Below are positions 1 to 16,930 of a stretch of DNA of 16,930 nucleotides, piece by piece. Position numbers and translations under genes: made by a program. The stretch is from Candidatus Margulisiibacteriota bacterium. GTDB lineage: Bacteria; Margulisbacteria; Termititenacia; Termititenacales; Termititenacaceae. Below the pieces are notes generated by a model. The model did not search any database. It saw nothing but the letters and a program-made list of their open reading frames with translations, and had not been told where the DNA came from. Each line of letters starts with the position of its first letter. Within the stretch, counting starts at the first letter, position 1. Location of the stretch: contig JAITIE010000045.1 of assembly GCA_031279615.1 (NCBI GenBank), forward strand, positions 1-16,930, read 5' to 3'.

Positions 1-3000
1 AGATGCTCGTAGCGGCGCAAACCCGTGCCAGCCGGTATCAGTTTGCCGATGATGACATTTTCTTTCAAGCCGGCCATATTGTCCTGCTTGCCGTACACCG
101 AGGCCTTGGTCAGCACCGACGTCGTTTCCTGAAAAGACGCGGCGGAGATATAGCTGTCCGTATTCAGCGAAGCCTTGGTCAGACCCAGCAGCACGTGGTC
201 GCCGACCGGCGGAGCTTTGCCGTCCGCTTTGAGTTTCTTGATCGTGTCTTCATAGTCAAACACGTCCACGAAATCATCCACCAAATACGGGCTGTCGCCG
301 ATCTCGCGAATACGCACTTTTTTGGTCATCTGGCGCACGATCACTTCGATGTGTTTGTCGTTGGTCGAAACGCCCTGCTGCAAATAAATGCCCAGCTCCT
401 CATTGACCAAAAACAACTGCGCCGCTTTCTTGCCCAAAATCGTGATGACATTGTGCGGATCGATCGGGCCCTTGGTCAGCTGCTCGCCCATCTTGACCTG
501 CTTGCCGGTGTAAAGGTCATTTAGCTTACTGCCCAGCGGTATCTCGTAAGTCTTTTTCTGGCTCTTGTTGCGCACCAAAATTTTGTGGCGGCCGTTTTCC
601 TCCGAGATCGCGTCGATCTGGCCGTCGATCTCCGAGAGCACCGCGGCTTTTTGCGGGTGCCTGGCCTCGAACACTTCCTCCACGCGCGGCAGACCGGCCG
701 TAATATCGCCGGCATCCTGCACTTCCACGTTTTCGATGGCGATGACCTGATCGTATTTCACGGCCTGGTCCTCAGGCACGCACAGCTGCGCGCCAGACTT
801 GATCGGATACACGCCGCCCGGCTCGAGCAGGATGGTCAGCGTACCGTTTTCGTTTTCGGTGATGCCCGTGACGAAACCGGAGCTTTCCGCGCGCACACCC
901 GGCGCCAGCTCCTCATCGTTGTCAACCAAATCCAGTTTCTTGACCAGCAATTCTTTGTCGGCGTCGACAATGTACTGCTTGCGCAAAGACTGGTCGGGAT
1001 TATGAATGAACAGCGAGCCGTTGCGGTTGGCCACCGAGATCATTTCCGAGCCGCCAGAAGCGTATTCTTTTTTGACCGGTTTTTCCACAAAGCCGTGATA
1101 CGAAATCTTGCCCTCGTTGATCGCGAAAATATATTTCACGCTCTTGTCGCGCTTGGCCAGCAGCTCGCCTTTTTTCACTTTTTGGCCATCCTTGACACTC
1201 AGCTCCGAGCCGGTCAGCAGACGCAGCACGCTCTTATTGCCTTTGGGCGGCTTGACATGCGCCAGCAGCGGATGCACCAAAATATCCACGTCTTTGCCGT
1301 CGCGTAAAATAGAAGTCTGGCGCACCTGATCTTTGGCTTTTTGCTGGCCGTCCGGATCGTGGAAATACACCGTGCCGTCGATCGGCGAAAAAATTTCCTC
1401 CATGTCGCCGCCGCCCAGCACCGCGCCGCCGGTATGGAAAGTGCGCATCGTCAGCTGTGTGCCCGGCTCGCCGATAGACTGCGCCGCGATAACGCCCACC
1501 GCCTCGCCGATATTGATCAGCTTGCGGGTCGACAAATCGTAGCCATAGCACTTGCGGCAAATGCCGCCGCGGGTAGAGCAAGTCAGCGGCGAACGGACTT
1601 TGACCGACAAAAACCTGGCCGCTTCGATTTTTTTGGCGGCTTTGTCGTCAATAACTTCGCCTTTTTTAACTAAAATTTCCTTTTCGTTATCCGGATTATG
1701 CAGAGTTTCCGCGGCTACGCGCCCGAACAATCTTTTGCGCAACGAGATCAGCTCCTGGCCGTCCTCATCGTACAGCGGCTCCAGTGTAATACTGTCTGCG
1801 GCGCCGCAGTCTTCCTCGGTGATAATCACATCCTGCGCCACATCAACCAGCCGGCGGGTCAGATAGCCGGACTCGGCTGTGTGCATCGCGGTGTCCACCA
1901 AACCCTTGCGCGCGCCGTAAGAGGAAATAAAGAATTCCGTCAAACTCATACCGTCGTACAGATTGGAAGTGATCGGCACTTTGACCGGACGGCCTTTGGC
2001 GTCGGCCATCAGACCGCGCATCGCGGAGAGCTGACGCACCTGGTCGATATTGCCGCGCGCGCCAGAATTGGCCATCATATACACGCTGTTGTACTCGCCC
2101 AGATTTTTCTGCATTTTTTCCGTAACCACACCGGTCGTGTTGCGCCAAATGTTATTGACTTTTTCTTCGGTCTCTTTTTTCACGCGTCCCAGTTCGCGGA
2201 TCATCGCGCCAGCGATCTCGTCATCCTCGGCCTTTTTCCACTCCCTGATCCGTTTCAGATTTTTGAGCGAGCGCTCCACCACTTTGGCAATCTTGCCGCT
2301 GTTATCTTTTTGTCCGGCCAGGTTTTTGACCGCGCCGGCGTCGCTCTCCAGAGTCTTGCCCAGCGTCTTCAGCGCTTCGTTGAACTCCTCAAACTGCAGG
2401 GCGCTCAAAAGCGCCGGCAGGAGTTTCAGCGCGTCAACCGCTTTGCGCAACTCTTGATATTTCTGCGGTTTTTGGTCGGCAATATAATTGTAGATGCGCG
2501 TCCAAATCTCGCTGTCGACAATTTTTTGCAGATTTTCTAAAACTTCGCCCAGCTCGGTCTGCGCGCTCTGCAATTCTTTGGGCTTGGGCAGTTTGTCCAA
2601 TTCCTGACTGAATTCAAACTGCTCGCCGGACTCGCCGTGCTCGACGTAGCCCCACAGCTCCGGCATGATTTTAAATTTCACCAGAATTTCTTTTAAATGT
2701 TCCAGCGCGTTTTTGACTTTTTTCGTGGTGTCTTCCAGGCCTTCTTCTTTGACCACGCCCTTGAGATAACTGTCGAGGAAATATTTGTCGCCTTTTTGCT
2801 CTTTGCCCAGCAGGACATCGACAATATCCGCCGCCTCAATCAAAGCCGACGGCAGAGCGGCTTTGCCGCGCAGAGCTTCCGTGCCGCCAATTTTCAGTTT
2901 GGCGCGGTCACTCAATAATTCATTGCGGGATTTCCAGGCTTCCAGCCGCTCCAGCACGGTCAGCCAGGCGCCGCGCAGTTGTCCCAAACATTTGCTGATT

Positions 3001-6000
3001 TCTTCCTCATCCTCCGCCTGTCCCAGCTCGGCCAGGGCCTTATCCAGCGGCAGTTTATTGTCCGGATTTTCCGCCAGCAGGTCATTGAGTAAACCGCGCG
3101 GTATATCGAGTTTCGCTTCGGCTTCGTTTTTGCCTTCCAGAGCAGCCAGCGGTTCGTTGAGGTCTTCCACCGGTTTGCGCAGGCTGTTCACTGCGGCTCC
3201 GGGTTTATTCAGCGCGGACAGCGCGTCGCCGGAAATAACCATGTGTTCGATATAATTATCCAGACTATTCAGCCAGTGCAGAGCGCCAAAGGCCGTGACC
3301 ACCGTGCGCGCTTCTTTGTCGGTCTTGAGAAACTCCAGACAGTTGCGCAGTTCGTACAAATTGGTCTTGATATTTTCGGCCTCGTCGGCGTTTTCCATGC
3401 CGGCCAGCAAAGCCAGCGGCGATTGCAACAGATTTTCCAGCACATGCAGAGAAACCAGCACATTGAAATACCTTTGCTGGCCGCGCAGCACGATCAGCGG
3501 TATCTGCAGACGCTCGCGGTGCCGCGTGTCGGATTTGCGCTCGTGATTCGGCTCGACGGATTTCAGTTCGGCCAGACCTTTGACCAGCTCGTTTAAGCCG
3601 TTCAGGATTTTCAAAGCTCTCCGGTTTTTCTCCCCGGCGCCACCGGACTCTTTTTGCACGTCTTTTTCCAAGCGCGCCAGCAGGCGGTCGAGTAGTTTTT
3701 CCGCGGATTTCTTATTGACCACATTAGCGTCGGGCGTGGAATCAATAAACTGCCGCAGATATTTTTTCGTGTCGTTCAGAGTTTTTTGCAGCAAGTCCAT
3801 GACATCCTGCGCGTCCAGGCGGTACACTTCCTGAAATTCGCGCAGGTCTAGATTGTCGACCGCGGTAAAATCTTCCAGCTTGTCCAGCGCGCCGCTCAAA
3901 GAATTGATCTTCGGCGTCACAATCTTGGTGATTTTCTCGCTGACCGGATTATAAACTTCCGTGATTTTTTTCAGCGCGGCTTTGATCTCGCGGACAGCGC
4001 TCTGCGTCAGGCTCTTTTTCGGCTGATCGTTTTTGGACAGCTCCACGTTTTTGGCATAATGTTTTTGCAATTCTTCCAGCAGTGACTTCAGCTCGCTAAT
4101 CTTTAGCCCGCCGACCGCTTCCTTGACGGACTTGGCGTTAAAATTATCCTGCTTGCTACCGTCCGCTTTGATCTCCGCCAGCTCTTCGATCCTGTTTTGC
4201 TCTTTGTCGTTTTTCACGCACTTTTTGACGCTCTCCAGATTGCGGGAAAGATTTTCCAGCAAACCTTTGAGCGCTTTGACATAAGTGCTGTCTTTCGGTT
4301 TGGCTTTGCCTTTTTCCGCTTCGGGAATATCCAGCAAATCGCTCTCCGTAAAATCCGCCGCCTCTTTGGTCTTGAGCGCCTCGCGGAAAATACTCTCCAG
4401 CACGGTCTTGTAACCGCCCAGAGGCTTCAACAGCATATTGTCCAAATATTCCTTGTGGTCTTTGAAATAATAATAGTCGTCTTTTTTCTTGCGCAGAAAA
4501 TCCAGCGAAATGCGCGACACATATCTCTCCACGCGGTCTTTGACGGATTTTTCCTGTGCATCGCCCAGCACGGAGATCAGCAGCTCGCGCCGTGCCCGCA
4601 GTTCGCGCAAAATCGTCTTCACGGCAAAATGCGCGTCGAGAGCGTTCAGCGGCTCTTCCAGCCTGGCCAGCGGCACATTGAAATCGTTGAGTTTTTTGCG
4701 CGCCAGACCGGCTTCTTCCTCGATGCGGTCTTCCTCTTTGCCAGCGTTGATATTAAAAGCGGCCACCTGCTTGCGACTGTTGCCGATGTCGCGGGCTTTG
4801 TTCAAACCCAGCGCCACAAATTCCGGCGGACTGGCCGACACGCCGGACTTAGTCGCGTAATGAAAACCGATATTTTTCAGCTGATCGCACAGCTCGGCCG
4901 TAACCTGAGCGCCGTATATATCGTAGTACTCGGAAATCAAACCGCGAATCTTGCCTTTGTCCATGCGGTAATTAAGATAACTGGCTTTGGGTTTATTGAA
5001 ATGCTCCAGCACTTTGCTGATGGCGTTATTGAAAACCAAACGGCCAATCGTCGTGCGTATCCATTTGTCCTCGTCCTTGACGAGCTGTTCTTTGTCCTCG
5101 GATTCGTTTTTCTTCAGGCTGAGCACATCTTCAAAATTGAGCAGTAAATTATTGCGCGAAATCCGGATCGGCTGCTGAATCCTGATCATGTGCAGATTGT
5201 AAGCTTTCATCGCCTCGTTGATGTCCGCAAAAGGCCGCGCTTTTTCCTCCAGCCGGCTTTTGGCCAGATACAGGAATTGTCCGGCTTTTTCGTCAAAAGC
5301 TTTGACTTCTTTGTCAGCCGCGCGCTCCATCGTCATCCAGTACAGACCGATAACCATGTCCTGCGTCGGCGTGATGATCGGGCTGCCGTTGGACGCGGAG
5401 AGGATATTGTTGTCCGCGCGCAGTAAAATACGGCACTCTGCCTGCGCTTCGGTGGACAGCGGCACGTGCACGGCCATCTGGTCGCCGTCGAAGTCCGCAT
5501 TGAAAGCCGTGCAGACCAGCGGGTGTATCTGGATCGCCTTGCCCTCGACCAGCACCGGCTCAAAAGCCTGAATGCCCAGACGGTGCAGTGTTGGCGCGCG
5601 GTTGAGCATCACGGGGTGGCCTTTAATGACTTTTTCCAGAGCGTTGTAGACCACCACGTCTTTGTTTTCGATCTTGCGTTTGGCGTCCTTGATATTGTGC
5701 GCTTCACCGCTGGCCACCAGCTCGTGAATAATGAACGGCTTGAACAGCTCGATCGCCATTTCTTTGGGCAGGCCGCATTGATGCAGTTTGAGCGAGGGGC
5801 CGACCACGATCACCGAACGTCCGGAATAATCCACGCGTTTGCCGAGCAGATTTTGGCGGAAACGCCCCTGCTTGCCCTCGATAATATTGGAAATCGAGCG
5901 CAGCGGCCGACCGTTGGTGCCGGTGGCTTCGCGGCCATGCTTGCCGTTGTCAAACAGCACATCGACGGCTTCCTGTAGCATGCGTTTTTCATTGCGCACG

Positions 6001-6851
6001 ATCATATTCGGCGCGCCGATGTCCAGCAGTCTTTTCAGGCGGTTGTTCCTGTTTAAAACGCGGCGGTACAAATCGTTGAGGTCCGAAGCCGCGAAACGGC
6101 CGCCTTCCAGCTGCACCATTGGCCGCAGGTCCGGTGGCATGACCGGAACGCAGTCCATGACCATCCAGGACGGCTTGTTGCCGGAAGACAAAAACGCCTC
6201 CACCACGCGAATGCGTTTGGTTAGTTTGAGGTAGGTCGGGCCTTTGGCAGCGGACAGCTCGCGGCGCAGACCGCCCAGCAATTTGTCCAAATCCATATCG
6301 TCCAGCACGTCTTTAACGGCTTTGGCGCCCATGTCGGCCTGGAATTTCTGGCCGTATTTTTGCTTGTAATAATTGTACTCGGCTTCCTGCAGCAACTGCG
6401 TGACTTTTAGTTCCTTGACCGACTCGTGCACTTTGGTGACCATGTAGGACTCGTAATACACGACGCGTTCCAGATTTTTGTAGGGCATATCCAGCATGAG
6501 GCCGATATGCGACGGCACGCCTTTCAAAAACCAAATATGCGCGACCGGCGCGGCCAGCTCAATATGCCCCATGCGCTCGCGCCGCACTTTGGAGTTCGTG
6601 ATCTCCACGCCACAGCGTTCGCAGGTGATGCCGCGGTAACGCACGCGCCGGTACTTGCCGCAGGTGCATTCCCAGTCTTTGACCGGCCCGAAAATCCGCT
6701 CGCAGAATAAGCCGTGGCGTTCCGGCTTGAACGTGCGGTAATTAATCGTCTCCGGCTTTTTGACTTCACCGTGCGACCAAAATCTGATCTGTTCCGGCGA
6801 AGCGATGCCCAGCTTGATGCTTTTGAAATCTTTCGGGTCACGAACTAACAT
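1..6851 (-). CDS. rpoC: DNA-directed RNA polymerase beta' subunit with giant insertion (3' end cut by window)
   Basis: Catalytic subunit of RNA polymerase. The ATG follows AAGGAGG by six bases, 42 bases after rpoB. The frame stays open for 2283 codons to the window edge. It is cut just after the LIPAGTG motif near the normal C-terminus, so little is missing. Seen in order: N-terminal zinc ribbon (C62, C64, C77, C80), clamp and dock regions like E. coli without the Thermus-type N-terminal insertion, catalytic NADFDGD (D453, D455, D457), the first rim-helix region (about 669-694), an insertion of about 850 residues, the conserved IWRN/SGARGN region (from 1565), bridge helix (about 1625-1670), second zinc site (C1682, C1758, C1765, C1768), trigger-loop start HTGGA (1806-1810), a second insertion of about 235 residues, and DITAGLPRV (from 2049). 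The usual family length is 1200-1400. All catalytic residues are intact, so I infer a functional enzyme. Confidence 0.97.
708..1421 (-). other. SI3-like insertion in the RpoC trigger loop
   Basis: The trigger loop starts with [12 protein letters not shown] (ending at residue 1810) and resumes with DITAGLPRV at residue 2049. In minimal enzymes such as Thermus these are almost adjacent, so about 235 residues are inserted. The segment is beta-rich, with patterns such as [14 protein letters not shown] typical of sandwich-barrel hybrid motifs. Gammaproteobacteria carry SI3 (about 190 residues) at this place and cyanobacteria a larger one. This looks like the same class of insertion. Confidence 0.75.
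2235..4769 (-). other. About 850-residue insertion in the RpoC rim helices
   Basis: Between the conserved TKSG (S669) and VNNIW (V1565) there are 896 residues. From memory of E. coli beta', this span is about 47 residues. The extra sequence, roughly residues 695-1540 (boundaries uncertain by 15-20), is rich in Leu, Lys, Glu, Ala and Asn, has few Cys and little Gly, and reads as a chain of amphipathic helices. Short similar segments recur, for example [16 protein letters not shown] and [10 protein letters not shown], each followed by an acidic Ala/Glu stretch. I see no nuclease, protease, intein or nucleotide-binding motif. The frame and codon style continue unbroken from the flanking rpoC sequence. 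The two rim helices border the secondary channel, the known docking site of GreA, GreB and DksA. What the insert does is unknown. Confidence 0.85.
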
Positions 6852-6893: not shown

Positions 6894-9800
6894 TTATTTC
6901 CGGTCTATCTCCCGTCCGTCGGCGGTCAGGACTTTCATGTCCAGTCCCAGCGAGCGGATCTCGCGCACCAGCACGTGGAATGAAGCCGGCGTGCCAGGCG
7001 GCGGCAGATTTTTGCCCTTGATAATCGCTTCGTAAACTTTGGCGCGGCCCGACACATCGTCGGACTTGACCGTCAGTAATTCCTGCAGAGTGTACGCGGC
7101 GCCGTAAGCCTCCAGCGCCCAGACTTCCATTTCGCCGAAACGCTGGCCGCCCATTTGCGCTTTGCCGCCCAGCGGCTGCTGTGTAACCAGCGAGTACGGA
7201 CCGGTGGCGCGCGCGTGCATTTTTTCCTCGACGAGGTGGATCAGCTTGAGCATGTACATATACCCGCACATAACTGGCTTGGCGTAAGGCTCACCGGTGC
7301 GTCCGTCGCGCAAAGTCACCTCGCCGCTCTCGCTCAGCCACTCAAAACCCGGGATTTTCCGCGCCTCGCGCAGTTTTTCCTCGATCGCCTGCACCGACGC
7401 GCCTTTTTCCGGATTTTCTGTCTCGTTTATCGCTTCGTCGAATTGCTGAGCTTCTATATACTCGCCCAGCGCGTGCGCGGCGTTGCCCAAAACCGTTTCA
7501 TAAATCTGGCCGACATTCATACGCGAAGGCACGCCCAGCGGATTGAGCACAATGTCTACCGGCTTGCCGTCCGGCAGGAACGGCATGTCTTCCGCCGGCA
7601 GGATGCGCGAAATCACGCCTTTGTTGCCGTGGCGTCCGGACATCTTGTCACCGACCATGACCTTGCGCAGCTGCGCCACATAGACCCGCACAATAGTTTT
7701 CACGCCGGGCGGCATGTCATCTTTGTTGTTCTCGTCAAACACGCGGACATCCACCACTTTGCCGCCTTCGCCGGACGACACGCGCAGTGAGGAGTCTTTC
7801 ATATCGCGGGCTTTGTCGCCGAAAATCGCGCGCAGTAATTTTTCCTCCGGCGGCTGTTCCTGTTCGCCCTTGGGCGTCACCTTGCCGACCAGAATATCGC
7901 CAGCGGTCACCGTCGAGCCTGGCCGGATAATGCCGCGCTCGTCCAGATTGCGCAGAAACTCCTCGCTGACATTGGGGATTTCCGGCGTCAGCTCCTCCGC
8001 GCCAACTTTGGTCGTGCGCACTTCCAGCTCGTAGCGGTTGATATGTATCGTCGTAAAAATATCGTCCTTGACCATGCGGTCAGACACCAAAATCGCGTCC
8101 TCGAAATTGTAGCCGTCAAAAGGCAGGAACGCCACCAGCACATTTTTACCGATCGCCAGCTCGCCGTCCTTGAAGCAGGTGCCTTCGACCAGCGGATCGC
8201 CAGCTTTGACCTTTTGCTCGACCGTCACGATCGGCTTTTGGTTGCGGCAGGTGTTTTGATTGGTGCGCAGATATTTAATCAGCTCATATTTTTTCTCATA
8301 GGCTTTTCTGCCGTCCGCCGGAGCATATTTGATGACAATTTTATTGGCGTCGACTTCGCTCACCTCACCGTCGGCCTCCGCAAAAAGCGCCGTGGAAATA
8401 TTTTTGCCGATGTGCTTCTCCATGCCCGTGCCGACAAAAGCGCGGTCCGGGTAAATCAACGGCGTGGCCTGCCGCATCATGTTGGAGCCCATCAGCGCGC
8501 GGTTGGCGTCGTCGTGCTCCAAAAACGGCACCAGACAGGCGCTCACGCCAAAAAGCTGTTTGGGCGAAACACCGACATAATTGACTTCCGCAGTCCTGAA
8601 CATGTCGAACTCGCCTTTTTTGCGCGCCGGCACAATGTCGCCTTTTAATTTATTGTCCGGCGTCACGCTGACATCGTAAGGAGCGATAATCGACTCTTCC
8701 TCTTTCTCCGCGGTCAAATACACCGGCGGATTGTTCCGGCCATTTTTGACCTCGCCGTTTTCCACTTCAAAATACGGCGTCACGATGAAGCCGTGCCTAT
8801 TGACATCGGCAAAAGTCGCCAGCGGCGAGATCAAACCGGAAGTCGGGCCTTCGGGCGTCTCCACCGGACAGATGCGTCCGTAATGCGACGGCTGAATATC
8901 GCGCACTTCAAAACCCGCGCGTTCTTTATTGACACCGCCGGGACCCATTGCCGACAGACGGCGTTTGTGCGCCAGCTCCGCCAGCGGATTGATCTGGTCC
9001 ATAAACTGCGACAACTGTGAGGAGCCGAAAAATTCTTTCATCACCGCGATCAACGGGCGGATATTGATAAGCGCCTGCGGCATGAAATCCTCGTTGCCTT
9101 TGAGCATCATCTGGTCTTTGATCAATCTTTCCAGACGGGTCAAACCAACTTTGAACTGCCTCTGCAGCAGCTCGCCCACCGCGCGCACACGGCGATTGGA
9201 CAGGTGATCGATGTCGTCCACCGAAGCCGAGACATCAGCGGTGAACAGCTTGATCAGATAACGTGCTACAGCCGCCACGTCTTCGTTGGTCAAGTAGTGC
9301 ACATCCTCGTTGTGCGCTTCGGCAAAACCCAGCTTGGTGTTGATTTTGTAACGGCCAATCTCGCCCAAATCATAGCGGTCAGGATTGAAAAACAGATTTT
9401 CCAAAAACTGCCTGGCGCCGTCCTCCGTGATATGGTCGCCCGGACGCAGTTTGCGGTACAGCTCGACCAGCGCTTCGCTCGGCGTCAAAATAGGACCGAT
9501 TTTTTTATTCTTAATCGTTTTGTCTAGATACTCGCCGCCGTTGAGCACCCGTTTGATTTTGGTCAGGTCTTCCGGATCCGGCTCATTGCTCAGAGCCTGG
9601 CGCATCTCGTCCTCATTGTAGCCGCGCGCCGCCAGGAACAAAGACAGGCCGATTTTTTTCATTTTGTTGATGTAAACCCAGATCACGCCGTTGGTGTCGA
9701 TTTCCATTTCCAGCCAGGCGCCGCGGTTGGGAATAATCTTAGCCTTGAAAGATTTTTCGTTTTTCTTGGCGTTTACTTTTTCCTCAAAATACACGCCGGA

Positions 9801-10241
9801 CGACCGCACGAACTGTGAAATGACCACGCGCTCGTCGCCGTTGAAAATGAACGTGCCTTGTTTGGTCATGCGCGGTATCTCGCCCATGTAAATCGTCTGC
9901 TGTTTGATTTCGCCAGTGATCGTATCCACCAGCCGCACCGGCACACGCAGTGACAGCGCGTAAGTATGCTCCTCGCGCAGACAGTCGATCTCCGAATATT
10001 TCGGCTCCTCGACTTCCGGTTTGGTATAGGCGTTTTTGTCCTCGTCAAAATACAAAAAGGAAAGCTCGTAACGGCCGTTGAAACCCACGATCGGGCTGAT
10101 GGCTTTTAACTCCTCCTCAATGCCCTCGTGCAAAAACTTATCGTAAGACTTCAACTGCAAAGACGTGAGCTTGGGCACGTCCAATTTTTCTTCAGGAATG
10201 TCAGCGTTTAACTTTACTCTCGGTTTAATTTTTGCGACCAC
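6894..10241 (-). CDS. rpoB: DNA-directed RNA polymerase beta subunit
   Basis: Second catalytic subunit of RNA polymerase, 1115 residues against about 1340 in E. coli; it lacks the large lineage-specific insertions SI1 and SI2. The start is GTG (MVAKIKPRVKL), eight bases after AGGAGG. Seen in order: the N-terminal lobes, the rifampicin-pocket region FFGSSQLSQFMDQ (D415) through HKRRLSAMG (H425, S430, matching E. coli H526 and S531), cluster II ETPEGPTSGLI (461-471), the active-site FDGYNFEDA and GDKMSGRHGNKG elements, and the C-terminal MGGQRFGEMEVWALEAYGAA clamp region ending in GLDMKVL. Oddities: E. coli N518, L533 and N568 correspond to I417, M432 and T467 here. It lies between rplL (85-base gap with a hairpin) and rpoC (42-base gap), the conserved order. 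Confidence 0.99.
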   Translation of the reverse strand: MVAKIKPRVKLNADIPEEKLDVPKLTSLQLKSYDKFLHEGIEEELKAISPIVGFNGRYELSFLYFDEDKNAYTKPEVEEPKYSEIDCLREEHTYALSLRVPVRLVDTITGEIKQQTIYMGEIPRMTKQGTFIFNGDERVVISQFVRSSGVYFEEKVNAKKNEKSFKAKIIPNRGAWLEMEIDTNGVIWVYINKMKKIGLSLFLAARGYNEDEMRQALSNEPDPEDLTKIKRVLNGGEYLDKTIKNKKIGPILTPSEALVELYRKLRPGDHITEDGARQFLENLFFNPDRYDLGEIGRYKINTKLGFAEAHNEDVHYLTNEDVAAVARYLIKLFTADVSASVDDIDHLSNRRVRAVGELLQRQFKVGLTRLERLIKDQMMLKGNEDFMPQALINIRPLIAVMKEFFGSSQLSQFMDQINPLAELAHKRRLSAMGPGGVNKERAGFEVRDIQPSHYGRICPVETPEGPTSGLISPLATFADVNRHGFIVTPYFEVENGEVKNGRNNPPVYLTAEKEEESIIAPYDVSVTPDNKLKGDIVPARKKGEFDMFRTAEVNYVGVSPKQLFGVSACLVPFLEHDDANRALMGSNMMRQATPLIYPDRAFVGTGMEKHIGKNISTALFAEADGEVSEVDANKIVIKYAPADGRKAYEKKYELIKYLRTNQNTCRNQKPIVTVEQKVKAGDPLVEGTCFKDGELAIGKNVLVAFLPFDGYNFEDAILVSDRMVKDDIFTTIHINRYELEVRTTKVGAEELTPEIPNVSEEFLRNLDERGIIRPGSTVTAGDILVGKVTPKGEQEQPPEEKLLRAIFGDKARDMKDSSLRVSSGEGGKVVDVRVFDENNKDDMPPGVKTIVRVYVAQLRKVMVGDKMSGRHGNKGVISRILPAEDMPFLPDGKPVDIVLNPLGVPSRMNVGQIYETVLGNAAHALGEYIEAQQFDEAINETENPEKGASVQAIEEKLREARKIPGFEWLSESGEVTLRDGRTGEPYAKPVMCGYMYMLKLIHLVEEKMHARATGPYSLVTQQPLGGKAQMGGQRFGEMEVWALEAYGAAYTLQELLTVKSDDVSGRAKVYEAIIKGKNLPPPGTPASFHVLVREIRSLGLDMKVLTADGREIDRK

Positions 10242-12587: not shown

Positions 12588-13223
12588 TTAGACGTTTTTC
12601 TCGATTTGGTCAAAATCCAATTCCACCGAAGTAGAGCGGCCAAAAATCGAAATCATCACTTTGACCGCGCCTTTTTCCGGCAGGACTTCTTTTATCTCGC
12701 CGGCATAACCGCGGAACGGCCCGGAAATCACTTTCACGTTTTCGCCGACCTCAAAATCAATTTCCAGTTTCGGCTTCACGGTCACTTCGCCGGTTTGATT
12801 GAGTATGCGCAGCACATCTTTGTCCGGCAGTGGCTCCGGCACGCCCGCGCCCACAAATTTGGACACGCCGTTGACCGTGCGCAGGTGATACCAGGCTTCG
12901 TCGTCTTTTTCCATATTGACGAAAACATAACCCGGAAACATCATTTTGCGCCGCTCATAACGTTTGCCGTTCTTGACCTCGATAACGTCTTCCTCCGGCA
13001 CCAGCACTTTAAAAATCCGGTCCTGCAGATTGAAGTCGCTGATTTTCTGCTCTATCGCCGAGCAGACTTTTTGCTCAAAACCGGTGAACACCTGCAGCAC
13101 ATACCAATCACCTTTGGCGGCGCGCGGCTCTTCCGCCGCCGGTACAGCCGCTGCGTCTTGCGCCGTTTCCGCTGTTTCCAAACTGGCTTCTTCTATTATA
13201 TTATTGCTCTCTAACTCGCTCAT
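12588..13223 (-). CDS. nusG: Transcription termination/antitermination factor NusG
   Basis: Universal elongation factor that binds the clamp of RNA polymerase and links it to Rho or to the ribosome (S10). The product is 211 residues. It has an acidic, Ala-rich N-terminal extension (about 1-37) that looks disordered. The NGN domain runs from WYVLQVFTGFEQKV (40-53) through FPGYVFV (96-102). The C-terminal KOW domain is visible as ISGPFRGYAGEI (166-177), ending in VELDFDQIEKNV. The ATG is preceded by TAGGAAAAAC and lies 13 bases after secE. NusG contacts the beta' clamp, which in this organism belongs to a greatly enlarged subunit. Confidence 0.98.
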   Translation of the reverse strand: MSELESNNIIEEASLETAETAQDAAAVPAAEEPRAAKGDWYVLQVFTGFEQKVCSAIEQKISDFNLQDRIFKVLVPEEDVIEVKNGKRYERRKMMFPGYVFVNMEKDDEAWYHLRTVNGVSKFVGAGVPEPLPDKDVLRILNQTGEVTVKPKLEIDFEVGENVKVISGPFRGYAGEIKEVLPEKGAVKVMISIFGRSTSVELDFDQIEKNV

Positions 13224-13908: not shown

Positions 13909-13937
13909 ATTTAACTATAAGGCGGTGGAGATGTCAA
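13909..13937 (-). promoter_or_regulatory. Sigma70-type promoter for the rpmG-rpoC cluster
   Basis: A perfect -35 TTGACA (13932-13937), a 17-base spacer and a -10-like TTAAAT (13909-13914, four of six consensus bases) lie upstream of rpmG. A start near 13902 would give a leader of about 25 bases. The TGA inside TTGACA is the stop codon of the upstream radical-SAM gene. No terminator lies between that gene and rpmG, so read-through is also possible. Confidence 0.6.
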
Positions 13938-15169
13938 TAAGCCAAAGAATAAGCCGTTTGCAATAAACTACTAATCTTTTGTTTTAATAATTTATCCTCA
14001 GATTTTTGGACTAATTCCCTGAGAAAAAAGCTGTCGGCAAGATCACCATAATCCTCTATAACTCGCAAACAAGCCAGCGTCTGCGCGGCATTCATTTTTT
14101 GCGTATATATTTTTCTAGCCTTTTTAAGCTCCGGTGATTTATCAAATCGCTTTTCTTTGACTTGCAAAACTTCCGCGACTTTATCCCGCGCGTAAAACAT
14201 ATTCTGGATTTTGCCGTTGGACAGTTCAACGCAGAAATTTTGAATATCTAGATATTTACGGAAAGGATAAAAGAAAAACTTCAGCGGCTGAAAATGCAGC
14301 AGTTTTAGAAGCCGGTTGGAATTCAGTTTATCTTCGAGATCAGCCAGCGTAAGATTTTTAATATTGCCCACCGGCAAAATCTTCTCGCCGACAAAGTTTT
14401 CATAAAGCACCGCGTCTCCGGAAACAGTAATAAAAAGCTTCACTTTCGGCTCGTTGTCTGACAACGCGGAGCCCCGCTTGGCATAAGGATTATTCTCTAC
14501 TACAGATAATTTTTTAGCGCGGCCAACAGAATATTCCAGCGGCACCGTTCTTTGTTTTAGCTTTACTCTGCCGGTCTCAATTCCTTGCTTTTCCAGACAA
14601 CGCAATACCTCAGCAAAAGTGTTGTCTTTAGAATACTCTACAGATTGCAGGTCATAATCAAATCCGCGCGGCCTGTCAGTTTCCAGCACAGAAACGACAT
14701 TTATAATATTTTGCCTTGGCGTGGCTGGCTGAGTTTGGTGAAATCTATCGCAACTTACCACCAATTTAATGAACTGCCCGCCACGCAGTAATTTTTGAAA
14801 ACGGCAGACAAAATCACGCACGGCTTGCTCTGACTTAGCCCAAAAACCATTGGTAATAATCCCGACATTGAAGCCTTTGCGCAGGACATATTCCAAAAGC
14901 GCCGTAAAATCTTGGTGCAAAAAAGGCTCGCCGCCCCAAAAGGCAAGACGCGTCTGTTTAAGCTCAGCCGCCTGGTCAACAATATTTTTTAATAATTCTA
15001 AACTCAAAAATTCCCCGCTCCGCGGCGAGCCGTAGTTGGAACAATGCGCGCAGGAATTAGTGCAGTGTTTGGTAAGCTCCACAGTCAATGAATCGAGCTT
15101 AAAACGGTCTAGGAAATAAGCGGGAGGATAGTTCTCTAATTCTTTTCCTATAGTTTCATATAAATACAT
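13934..15169 (-). CDS. Radical SAM protein, paralogue A
   Basis: 411 residues. The radical-SAM cluster motif CTNSCAHC (C36, C40, C43) binds the [4Fe-4S] that cleaves S-adenosylmethionine; WGGEP at 78-82 is the SAM amino-group motif. SCDRFHQ (139-145) is shared with its neighbour. The C-terminal half has the fold pattern of a SPASM/twitch region (VSGDAVLYENFVGEKILPVGNI), but where a cluster Cys would be expected there is none. A Phe/Lys/Tyr-rich block around H292 (LHFQPLKFFFYPFRKY) is identical in the neighbour. The ATG overlaps the stop of the upstream gene as TGATG, implying translational coupling. Substrate unknown; a peptide- or small-molecule-modifying enzyme is possible, but nothing in view identifies it. 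Confidence 0.9.
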   Translation of the reverse strand: MYLYETIGKELENYPPAYFLDRFKLDSLTVELTKHCTNSCAHCSNYGSPRSGEFLSLELLKNIVDQAAELKQTRLAFWGGEPFLHQDFTALLEYVLRKGFNVGIITNGFWAKSEQAVRDFVCRFQKLLRGGQFIKLVVSCDRFHQTQPATPRQNIINVVSVLETDRPRGFDYDLQSVEYSKDNTFAEVLRCLEKQGIETGRVKLKQRTVPLEYSVGRAKKLSVVENNPYAKRGSALSDNEPKVKLFITVSGDAVLYENFVGEKILPVGNIKNLTLADLEDKLNSNRLLKLLHFQPLKFFFYPFRKYLDIQNFCVELSNGKIQNMFYARDKVAEVLQVKEKRFDKSPELKKARKIYTQKMNAAQTLACLRVIEDYGDLADSFFLRELVQKSEDKLLKQKISSLLQTAYSLAY

Positions 15170-16401
15170 CAGCTTGTCCCCTGCACATAGCGCGGTTCAT
15201 AAGCATATGTTGTCATTAGAAGATTTTGGATTTTTTGTTTTAATCTAGTATTAGTTATCTTGCGTTTCAATTCATGTAACGGGAAAAGGTCAGAAAGGTC
15301 TCCATAACACTCAATAGTTTTTAAAGCTGCGGGATCAATTTCACATTGGCCAGTATAAATCCGTCTAGCTAGCTGCAACTTTTGTGAAAAATCAAATTGC
15401 TTTTGCCGTTTCTGCAATAAATCAGAAGCAAGATTTCTTAGAAAGAAGAAATTTCGAATTTTACCAGCCGAAAGTTCTTGAGTAATCTTTTGTATATCTA
15501 CATATTTACGAAAAGGATAAAAAAAGAATTTCAACGGCTGAAAATGCAGCAATTTCAAAAGCTTTTGCCTATTCATGTTTTTAAGAATTTCTGTAATATT
15601 TTGCTTATAGACATTGCCCAAAGGCATTATTTCATTACCTATAAAAGTCTCATAAAAAAACACCTCTCCTGTTACCGAAACACAAAAGATTATCTCGGAA
15701 TTAACCAAAGTAAACCGAGCATAAGGGTCGGCGCCTTGTTCAGTCAATATTTTAGCTCTGCCCGCTGCTTTTTCTAAAGGCAAAATAGTTGTTCTCTGTC
15801 GCACCTTTTCTAAAGATATATTTGGGTTGTGTTTCCGTAAGTCACCGAATACTTTAGCTAGAGTATTATCACCCCGACTCTCTACAGAATGTATGCGATA
15901 ACCCTCTAGTTTTTCTCTTTCCAGCACAGCAAGCGCGTTTACAATATTGATCAAGGGCGTGGCTTTTTGTTCTTGATGAAAACGATCGCAACTGAGCGCC
16001 AATCTTACTGTCTTACCACCCTTGCCCAGCCTTTTTAATTGGCTAATGGTTTTCTCCGCCGCTTCCAGCGAATAAGCCCAAAAAGCATTAGTATTTACAC
16101 AAGGAGTCAAACCATTATCCAGACAATATTTTAAGATAAGATAAAGATCTGGATGTAGAAAAGGCTCGCCGCCCCAGATATTTATAAAATCATGTTTCTG
16201 TTGAACAGCTTGATCTATCAGTTTCTTTACCAAGGTTATTGGCAAAAATTTTTTCTGCCGCGGAGAACAATAATTAGTGCAATGCCGACAAGCATTTGTA
16301 CATTTGTTAGTTATTTCCAAAGACAAATAAGCAATTCGAAAACTATTTGTAAAATAATCTAGAGGATAATGCTTAATTTCTTTTTCAATAAGTTTTCGCA
16401 T
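15169..16401 (-). CDS. Radical SAM protein, paralogue B
   Basis: 410 residues, alignable end to end with the downstream paralogue A. The cluster motif is CTNACRHC (C34, C38, C41), with an extra C45 close by; WGGEP is at 76-80 and SCDRFHQ at 137-143. The SPASM-like strand VSVTGEVFFYETFIGNEIMPLGNV again lacks the expected Cys. The LHFQPLKFFFYPFRKY block around H286 is identical in protein to paralogue A but differs at many synonymous sites, so it is kept by selection on the protein. The ATG follows GGAG by seven bases, 26 bases after the SPASM gene. It is strongly AT-rich: 15 of 60 bases are G or C at 16321-16380. Function unknown; the two paralogues may act together on one substrate. Confidence 0.9.
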   Translation of the reverse strand: MRKLIEKEIKHYPLDYFTNSFRIAYLSLEITNKCTNACRHCTNYCSPRQKKFLPITLVKKLIDQAVQQKHDFINIWGGEPFLHPDLYLILKYCLDNGLTPCVNTNAFWAYSLEAAEKTISQLKRLGKGGKTVRLALSCDRFHQEQKATPLINIVNALAVLEREKLEGYRIHSVESRGDNTLAKVFGDLRKHNPNISLEKVRQRTTILPLEKAAGRAKILTEQGADPYARFTLVNSEIIFCVSVTGEVFFYETFIGNEIMPLGNVYKQNITEILKNMNRQKLLKLLHFQPLKFFFYPFRKYVDIQKITQELSAGKIRNFFFLRNLASDLLQKRQKQFDFSQKLQLARRIYTGQCEIDPAALKTIECYGDLSDLFPLHELKRKITNTRLKQKIQNLLMTTYAYEPRYVQGTS

Positions 16402-16427
16402 GCATTCACTCCGCCTTAGCTACAATC

Positions 16428-16930
16428 TCATAAACGCTCATAAATACCTCTCGCTTTTTTATTATATTTTCTAGTTAAAATCTTTATCTTCTCCGGCAAT
16501 TTTTCCGGCACCAGCAAACCTAACCTCACAAATTCTACAAGCTTGTTTAGATCTGATAACAGCCATAAATTAGGGTTATAACAAGTCCTGCATTGTGCAG
16601 GCCGGTCCTTAATATTTGAGGTTAATAAAGATTTTCTGATCGCCAGCAATTTCTTGCTCTGCCAAGCTTCCAACAAGGTCATTTCCGAGATATTTCCTAA
16701 AATCAATCCGGCCCGAAAATGATCCCTCAGGCAACAAGAAATATCGCCATTAGCTAAAATATGCAAATTCGTAAATGGTCCAGGGCAAGGAATAGATAAA
16801 TACCCGTTAGCCAGGGAAACCCTCGAAAAATATGACAAATCGCTGTTAGCGCTATTGACATTTAATAAAGAAATTTTTATTTTATAAAAATACTTTTTAA
16901 AATTAAGAATAAATAAAGGTAATTCTGCCA
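16428..16930 (-). CDS. Radical SAM/SPASM protein, C-terminal part (5' end cut by window)
   Basis: The frame is open from the window edge to the stop at 16428, giving 166 visible residues; the gene start and radical-SAM core lie outside. The visible part is a SPASM domain that holds auxiliary [4Fe-4S] clusters: CPGPFTNLHILANGDISCC, then LRDHFRAGLILGNISEMTLLEAW, then QCRTCYNPN. This follows the usual order C, G-x4-C, lGN, eiW, CxxC. A basic tail (KILTRKYNKKARGIYERL) ends the protein. It is followed after 26 bases by paralogue B, so the three radical-SAM genes probably form one operon. A TTG at 16838 could look like a start, but the frame continues upstream without a stop. Confidence 0.85.
   Translation of the reverse strand, partial: AELPLFILNFKKYFYKIKISLLNVNSANSDLSYFSRVSLANGYLSIPCPGPFTNLHILANGDISCCLRDHFRAGLILGNISEMTLLEAWQSKKLLAIRKSLLTSNIKDRPAQCRTCYNPNLWLLSDLNKLVEFVRLGLLVPEKLPEKIKILTRKYNKKARGIYERL

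Follow-up and report, generated by a model that had tools for sequence, protein, structure and literature searches.

The stretch of DNA studied here (the window) covers positions 1 to 16,930 of contig JAITIE010000045.1 from a Candidatus Margulisiibacteriota bacterium (assembly GCA_031279615.1). We refer to the genome of the window as G000 and to the other genomes of its family as G001-G007. The minus strand of the window carries rpoC, rpoB, rplL, rplJ, rplA, rplK, nusG, a tRNA-Trp gene and three radical-SAM/SPASM-type genes, with the ribosomal genes named from product recognition and synteny. The rpoC gene, which encodes the beta' subunit of RNA polymerase and is preceded by an intact rplK-rplA-rplJ-rplL-rpoB cluster, contains an in-frame insert of 844 codons between its two rim helices, and this insert is the subject of this work. 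The relevant parts of the gene are:

3..6851, minus strand: rpoC, for RNA polymerase beta' (2283 codons up to the contig end, which truncates the gene at 3'; TIGR02386 1560.6 bits)
4716..4865, minus strand: ascending rim side, residues 663-712, with a degenerate DD..VP motif
2184..4715, minus strand: rim insert, residues 713-1556 (844 aa), delimited with a hidden Markov model (HMM) of native rims and by length comparison
2082..2183, minus strand: descending rim helix, residues 1557-1590, with N at position 684 (E. coli numbering)

An initial annotation of the window had proposed a single rpoC frame of at least 2283 codons with its catalytic and zinc residues in place, and this holds. The frame has no stop and runs off the contig end, the NADFDGD catalytic motif and two zinc motifs are present and rpoB lies upstream, which together identify the product as RpoC. 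The match to TIGR02386 falls into two stretches, the best one ending at residue 698; likewise, Pfam domain 3 of RpoC ends at residue 673 and domain 4 starts at 1543. It is the single rpoC match in the source assembly (1,021,249 bases, 165 contigs, 80% complete). The HMM, built from 16 native Margulisbacterial rims, covers residues 632-712 and picks up again at 1557; the part in between has no significant match, so the extra stretch comprises residues 713-1556; by difference the gain is 848 residues (915 vs 67). Both values agree with the size of about 850 residues, in the rim helices at the mouth of the secondary channel, that had first been suggested, and only the ends of the insert, originally set at 2235..4769, shift by 51-54 bases each. 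The large excess between the TKSG and VNNIW motifs likewise stands, with the counts of 896 and about 47 corrected to 894 residues and, from ARSG to VIDIW in E. coli MG1655, 45. Insert-bearing relatives have a full RpoC of 2310 aa. By alignment with MG1655 rpoC, the source of all E. coli numbering used here, the insert sits at about E. coli 670-674, which we take to be the tip of the hairpin of the two rim helices. By eye, the native rim also seemed to match the insert at its C-terminal end; this match was not retained, as the HMM puts the break at the tip.

The native rim has changed on both sides of the insert. Besides the degenerate DD..VP motif, the acidic residue at position 684, D or E in 14 of 14 non-insert RpoC compared, is N in the insert clade; both the motif and this position presumably matter for factor binding. 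One paper names N680 for ppGpp-DksA (PMC7676912).

The insert has a very restricted distribution. Its profile matches five of the 74 genomes of the phylum, once each (G000, G001, G002, where it is partial at a contig end, G004 and G005). All carriers are termite-gut bacteria of one genus, Candidatus Termititenax, and make up five of its six genomes. The sixth, G003, has an RpoC of 1396 aa without the insert, as have G006 and G007 of the sister genus in the same family. In a wider search, rpoC was matched in 87 of 95 genomes, with a single match to each, and no other frame above 1602 aa occurs among the matches listed. Public contigs that contain the insert are BGZN01000039.1 (Candidatus Termititenax aidoneus NkOx7-01) and JAIRZV010000028.1 (Margulisiibacteriota metagenome-assembled genome Gx481_bin108); a scan of GTDB contigs with two short peptide patterns gave 227 matches, two of them relatives. 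NCBI places the genus Candidatus Termititenax in Candidatus Margulisiibacteriota. Against 5.8 billion proteins, the insert region inside RpoC returned one cluster, P0001, and the insert alone returned no match, in each case among the best 7991 candidates scored; residues 718-1011 gave none among 6043 candidates, and no relative was seen in 97 pattern matches to viral contigs. G003 groups with the insert carriers in trees of four concatenated ribosomal proteins, RecA and EF-G, and in the RecA tree the stem of the carriers has length zero. Since the sixth genus member and the sister genus have a 1396-aa RpoC, and since these trees group G003 with the carriers, the insert was, most simply, gained inside the genus Candidatus Termititenax after G003 split off, and looks recent. 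A normal-length RpoC in relatives had been named beforehand as grounds for rejecting the insert. Such a relative exists in G003. It dates the insert and does not refute it, since the insert is shared by five genomes, which include contigs of different accession series.

The insert also behaves as a coding sequence under constraint. Its ratio of non-synonymous to synonymous substitution rates (dN/dS) is 0.032-0.130 at dS 0.28-0.67 in ten genome pairs, of which the four with G002 cover only 280 codons, compared with 0.016-0.054 for the C-terminal part of RpoC (ten pairs) and 0.015-0.027 for the N-terminal 500 residues (six pairs). The four full copies are equal in length, without a gap over 876 aligned columns, and share an invariant run of 50 residues; 59 of 584 columns vary at residues 680-1263 and 51 of 292 at 1264-1555. 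Codon usage of the insert correlates at 0.89 with that of rpoB and at 0.79 with that of the remaining rpoC (reference values are 0.92 for rpoB vs the rest of rpoC and 0.46 for the first radical-SAM gene vs that rest), and its third-position GC content is 0.66, compared with 0.72 and 0.70 for the rpoB/rest-of-rpoC pair and 0.43 and 0.30 for two radical-SAM genes. Chance is not a sufficient explanation, because the 844 codons are free of stops, resemble rpoB and rpoC in codon usage, recur in four other genomes and are under purifying selection. Judged by these substitution patterns, the insert is functional and held by purifying selection.

These data bear on two alternatives. Assembly artefacts, inteins and spliced elements are general sources of in-frame inserts; in this case, however, the same insert occurs in contigs of different accession series, residues 680-1555 contain no HN[CST] motif, no intein family appears among the 15 Pfam families listed for four inserts, and selection on it is of the coding type, so that we attach almost no weight to this explanation. 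It is very improbable that the expansion is neutral or mildly deleterious and was fixed by drift, the bacterium being host-associated and the core changes compensatory. Such an origin would be in line with the faster evolution of Margulisbacteria (PMC8047818) and with a dN/dS about two to four times that of the flanks, but not with the low absolute dN/dS (0.03-0.13), the single length of four full copies at dS near 0.5, the invariant 50-residue run and the short RecA and EF-G stems of the clade. Being in frame, restricted to one lineage and flanked by conserved core on both sides, the insert is with near certainty a genuine lineage-specific insertion in RNA polymerase beta'.

The protein of about 95 kDa encoded by the insert is rich in leucine, lysine and glutamate, with a net charge of -4 and an isoelectric point of 6.4. 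Searches gave no convincing relative in Pfam (four inserts; best E 0.0022 for His_Phos_2 in three of four members, and QRPTase_C in all four at best E 0.035), in PHROGs (best E 0.024) or in the PDB (one match, threonine-tRNA ligase, E 0.082), and we treat all of these as chance. Neither HABAS domains, which have a four-stranded sheet, nor BEAN domains, which have a bracket fold, are among the weak Pfam matches or the sole PDB match, and GreA_GreB_N, GreA_GreB and zf-dskA_traR are absent from the 15 Pfam families listed. AlphaFold2 models of a 961-residue piece (78% helix, no strand) and of a 388-residue piece (helical, no strands) have a mean predicted local distance difference test (pLDDT) of 41.9 and 45.5, respectively; in alignment A2, used for the first model, native rims were scattered into the insert at a few columns, which may have hurt it. 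From these models the insert is likely to be mostly alpha-helical. Side by side with this, residues 718-1011 align to 1225-1495 with a score of 87 and a recurring N.PLA.LE-like start, suggestive of an internal duplication. This score was reached by none of 40 plain and none of 500 pattern-preserving shuffles; against a duplication, hhalign aligned 15 columns only (P 0.045), and the insert scored 106 against its own reverse, a value probably inflated by self-symmetry; half against reversed half scored 57.

The core enzyme has diverged on the branch that carries the insert, and the following features are concerned:

1821..1961, minus strand: bridge-helix region, with clade-specific L788M, R789H and D792E (E. 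coli numbering)
1416..1451, minus strand: N-terminal trigger-loop arm, with clade-specific V940A (residue 1810)
729..1415, minus strand: insertion of SI3 type within the trigger loop, distinct from the rim insert
6894..10241, minus strand: rpoB (1115 aa), with a long stem on the insert-clade branch and small indels relative to the 1069-aa RpoB of G003

Of 18 genomes aligned, 11 were used in trees and all 18 in site counts; G002 with its partial rpoC was left out of both, and G032 and G055 entered the rpoC and rim alignments only. Stem lengths come from trees of 9 to 11 genomes constrained to the species topology (RpoA without G000, NusA without G000 and G001, EF-G without G004). Comparing the stem of the insert clade with the G003 branch, the values are 0.041/0.116 for the four ribosomal proteins, 0.000/0.023 for RecA, 0.022/0.040 for EF-G and 0.241/0.268 for NusG, but 0.317/0.059 for RpoB (range 0.26-0.32/0.06) and 0.570/0.089 for RpoC (range 0.43-0.57/0.09-0.10). 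Among RpoC sites that are invariant in 14 other Margulisbacteria, the clade has changed 16 of 400, G003 has changed 3 of 403, and G006 plus G007 have changed 3 of 405; the corresponding RpoB counts are 12 of 323, 3 of 326 and 2 of 325. On the deeper branches of the outgroups (G008, G010, G011), 3-8 sites changed in RpoC and 5-19 in RpoB. Half of the 16 RpoC changes lie at E. coli positions 763, 765, 767, 788, 789, 792, 940 and 1144, i.e., in bins 706-805, 931-942 and 1131-1149, which we take to be the bridge helix with the segment preceding it, and the trigger loop (8/75 vs 8/325 elsewhere, Fisher p = 0.004). RpoB 514-600 is enriched similarly (5/46 vs 7/277, p = 0.017); all bins were chosen by the analyst, and the p values are uncorrected for this choice. 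The SI3-type insertion in the trigger loop has 32-46% identity to that of G003 in 50-residue steps, compared with 69-77% between G003 and G006.

The 14 other Margulisbacteria combine V940 with D792, and the insert clade has A940 with E792. Transcript hydrolysis by the E. coli enzyme rises with A940V and with N792D, and Q at position 1136 is another state that raises hydrolysis (PMC7026648); position 1136 is A alike in the insert clade, G003 and G006. The shared bridge-helix D792 and trigger-loop V940 of the 14 non-insert RpoC are an observation in their own right, as in that paper these states are treated as cyanobacteria-specific (PMC7026648). They were considered as a mark of lineages without Gre factors, an idea dropped because Gre-positive G011 has both. 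As to RpoB, a 16-residue insertion near residue 221 and further small ones separate it from that of G003, to which it is 76% identical; two named Termititenax species share 78% (PMC8047818), and going by this identity G003 might be Candidatus T. persephonae or a close relative.

Part of this divergence might be age. Had the rpoB-rpoC genes together with the insert been acquired horizontally from a deeper, unsampled relative, the divergence would largely reflect time and the insert would be older than the genus. In free trees of RpoB and RpoC the insert clade is basal in the family, outside G003, G006 and G007 (NusG and RpoD also give a basal position), and under LG+G4 the species topology is rejected (approximately unbiased test, p = 0.021 for RpoB and 0.00013 for RpoC). 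Under LG+C20+G4, in itself a weak control with a worse likelihood for RpoC, it is not (p = 0.32 and 0.12). Moreover, in the free trees the distance between the clade and the family root is still roughly double that of its relatives (0.27-0.28 vs 0.12-0.14 for RpoB; 0.44-0.46 vs 0.23-0.24 for RpoC), whereas the free ribosomal-protein tree gives 0.11-0.14 vs 0.10-0.16, and no other carrier was found in the 74 phylum genomes or among the best 7991 candidates of the protein search. We consider such a replacement unlikely.

GreA/GreB and DksA/TraR act at the rim helices and the secondary channel (PMC10802570, PMC6970531). In the eight family genomes (63-100% complete; insert-bearing G001 93%, G005 95%), three with a normal rim among them, neither PF01272 (GreA_GreB) nor PF03449 (GreA_GreB_N) has a match; the control was 14 known genomes, in which PF01272, PF03449 and PF01258 matched 9, 9 and 5. 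In the phylum at large, 23 of 28 Margulisbacterial genomes are without a GreA/GreB domain match (PF01272 matches in five) and all 28 without a DksA-type finger match (PF01258, zf-dskA_traR). The initial annotation had suggested that the insert could block or replace Gre and DksA. These factors are indeed not found, but as the family genomes with normal rims also show no match, they were most likely gone before the insert arrived, which would not have displaced them.

Large beta' insertions have precedents. Similar to the cyanobacterial Si3, a trigger-loop insertion of 645 residues built of barrel-sandwich hybrid domains (PMC10802570, PMC10120043) and called the largest known in one recent paper, the rim insert is a very large lineage-specific addition in a lineage without Gre or DksA. 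The tail and fin of Si3 sit on the rim helices, and by binding the rim hairpin Si3 shields the site of the Gre and DksA factors, with the rim tip as the pivot of trigger-loop-driven motion (PMC10802570, PMC10120043). Unlike Si3, the insert described here measures 844-848 residues, is predicted at low confidence to be helical and lies at the rim tip (residues 713-1556), not in the trigger loop (at about 1801), where the same RpoC has an SI3-type insertion as well. It shares with E. coli SI3 (beta'i6) and with HABAS/BEAN insertions that it is in-frame and lineage-specific and leaves the core intact; it differs from the catalogued HABAS/BEAN insertions in its rim site and in having no sequence match to those domains. 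GreA/GreB and DksA/TraR are diffusible proteins, whereas the insert is covalent. In one catalogue, which leaves out inserts below 50 residues, none of the seven beta' insertion sites lies in domain uD4 (PMC11515920), and judging by its coordinates uD4 would hold the rim helices. Titles and abstract starts among the matches listed contain no rim insertion or Termititenax polymerase, with the catalogue of Lane and Darst, said to be the main earlier one, outside this comparison. Insertion into beta' is a known kind of event, of which this size and place would be new.

Based on these data, we propose that the insert is a module held permanently at the entrance of the secondary channel, linked to the catalytic cycle and comparable in effect to cyanobacterial Si3, a proposal for which we see an even chance. 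A probably alpha-helical domain of about 95 kDa has been grafted onto the loop joining the two rim helices and kept by selection. Held covalently at this place, it could act in cis on the folding cycle of the trigger loop and bridge helix, affecting pausing, backtracking and transcript hydrolysis, and would keep diffusible secondary-channel factors off the rim, so that its role in this polymerase would be much like that of the contact between Si3 and the rim in cyanobacteria. We favor a cis-acting module because the domain is tethered at the rim tip and the bridge helix and trigger loop have changed on the same branch; the enrichment of changes there makes the built-in regulator of the initial annotation more plausible, as a prediction from sequence. 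Several observations weigh against the proposal. The stem is also longer, more weakly, for RpoA copy 2 (0.408/0.219), RpoD (0.084/0.026) and NusA (0.259/0.158). The outgroup G010 reaches 8 of 408 changed RpoC sites, and with 19 of 342 in G011 the RpoB site count of the clade is by itself unexceptional. Both models have a low pLDDT, so that the channel contact is a prediction, the insert has no Gre or DksA likeness among the Pfam families listed, the loss of Gre looks older than the insert, and the presence of V940 and D792 in Gre-positive G011 makes the link between these residues and Gre absence loose.

The domain may instead point outward and serve as a docking platform for a partner specific to the lineage, without acting on the channel. 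Such a partner could be the ribosome or NusG (in coupled transcription-translation), a protein of the nucleoid or the membrane, or a regulator. The tip of the rim-helix hairpin is solvent-exposed in known RNA polymerase structures, the net charge of -4 is spread over 844 residues and NusG is only 57% identical between G000 and G003. No partner was found, however, in a search confined to the window, the RpoC changes specific to the clade are concentrated around the active site, and the NusG stem of the clade is similar in length to the G003 branch (0.24 vs 0.27). Docking strikes us as possible, with a clearly smaller chance than the tethered module. A bolder form of the tethered module, which we put forward only speculatively and find rather improbable, is that a new helical fold has become a built-in, docked elongation factor. 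In a polymerase without Gre it would now control pausing and proofreading, and the active site would have been readjusted through V940A, D792E and R789H.

Two further loci of the window and one elsewhere in the genus complete the picture:

12588..13223, minus strand: nusG, whose product is 57% identical to that of same-genus G003, with an insert-clade stem no longer than the G003 branch
13934-16928, minus strand: three low-GC adjoining genes for two radical-SAM proteins and a SPASM-domain protein that the contig end truncates
L104:34-1677 (G001), L103:772-2403 (G003), L105 (G005), L106 (G004) and, in part, contig C149 of G000: fused rpoA

The best NCBIfam match of the two radical-SAM proteins is a YydG-type peptide epimerase, far under the cut-off; the codon usage of these genes is unlike that of the rpoBC cluster, and they are perhaps a peptide-modification locus. 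The rpoA of the genus is a tandem fusion: a single frame of 544-584 codons encodes the alpha N-terminal domain twice and the C-terminal domain once. Each frame has two TIGR02027 matches in G001, G003, G004, G005 and, cut, G000, compared with one only in G006, G007 and four outgroups. In G001 and G003, which were scanned, the fused RpoA contains two RNA_pol_A_bac, two RNA_pol_L and one C-terminal domain stretch, and copy 1 is apparently without a segment kept in copy 2. As far as the gene reveals, the fused product is a covalent alpha dimer, and it is also found in G003, without the rim insert. No natural alpha fusion appears in titles or abstract starts among the matches listed of our literature searches; Francisella has two separate alphas (PMC3294249).

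In summary, the rim insert exceeds the 645-residue Si3 in size and is so young that a member of the same genus still exists without it. Comparing this relative with the carriers is a natural way to ask what very large polymerase insertions do, how an enzyme of several subunits accommodates 95 kDa of extra protein, and whether the rim tip controls the catalytic cycle when Gre factors are missing. If the bolder reading given above is true, the insert together with the fused alpha dimer would point to a recently rebuilt RNA polymerase in Candidatus Termititenax, of which the states before and after both survive.

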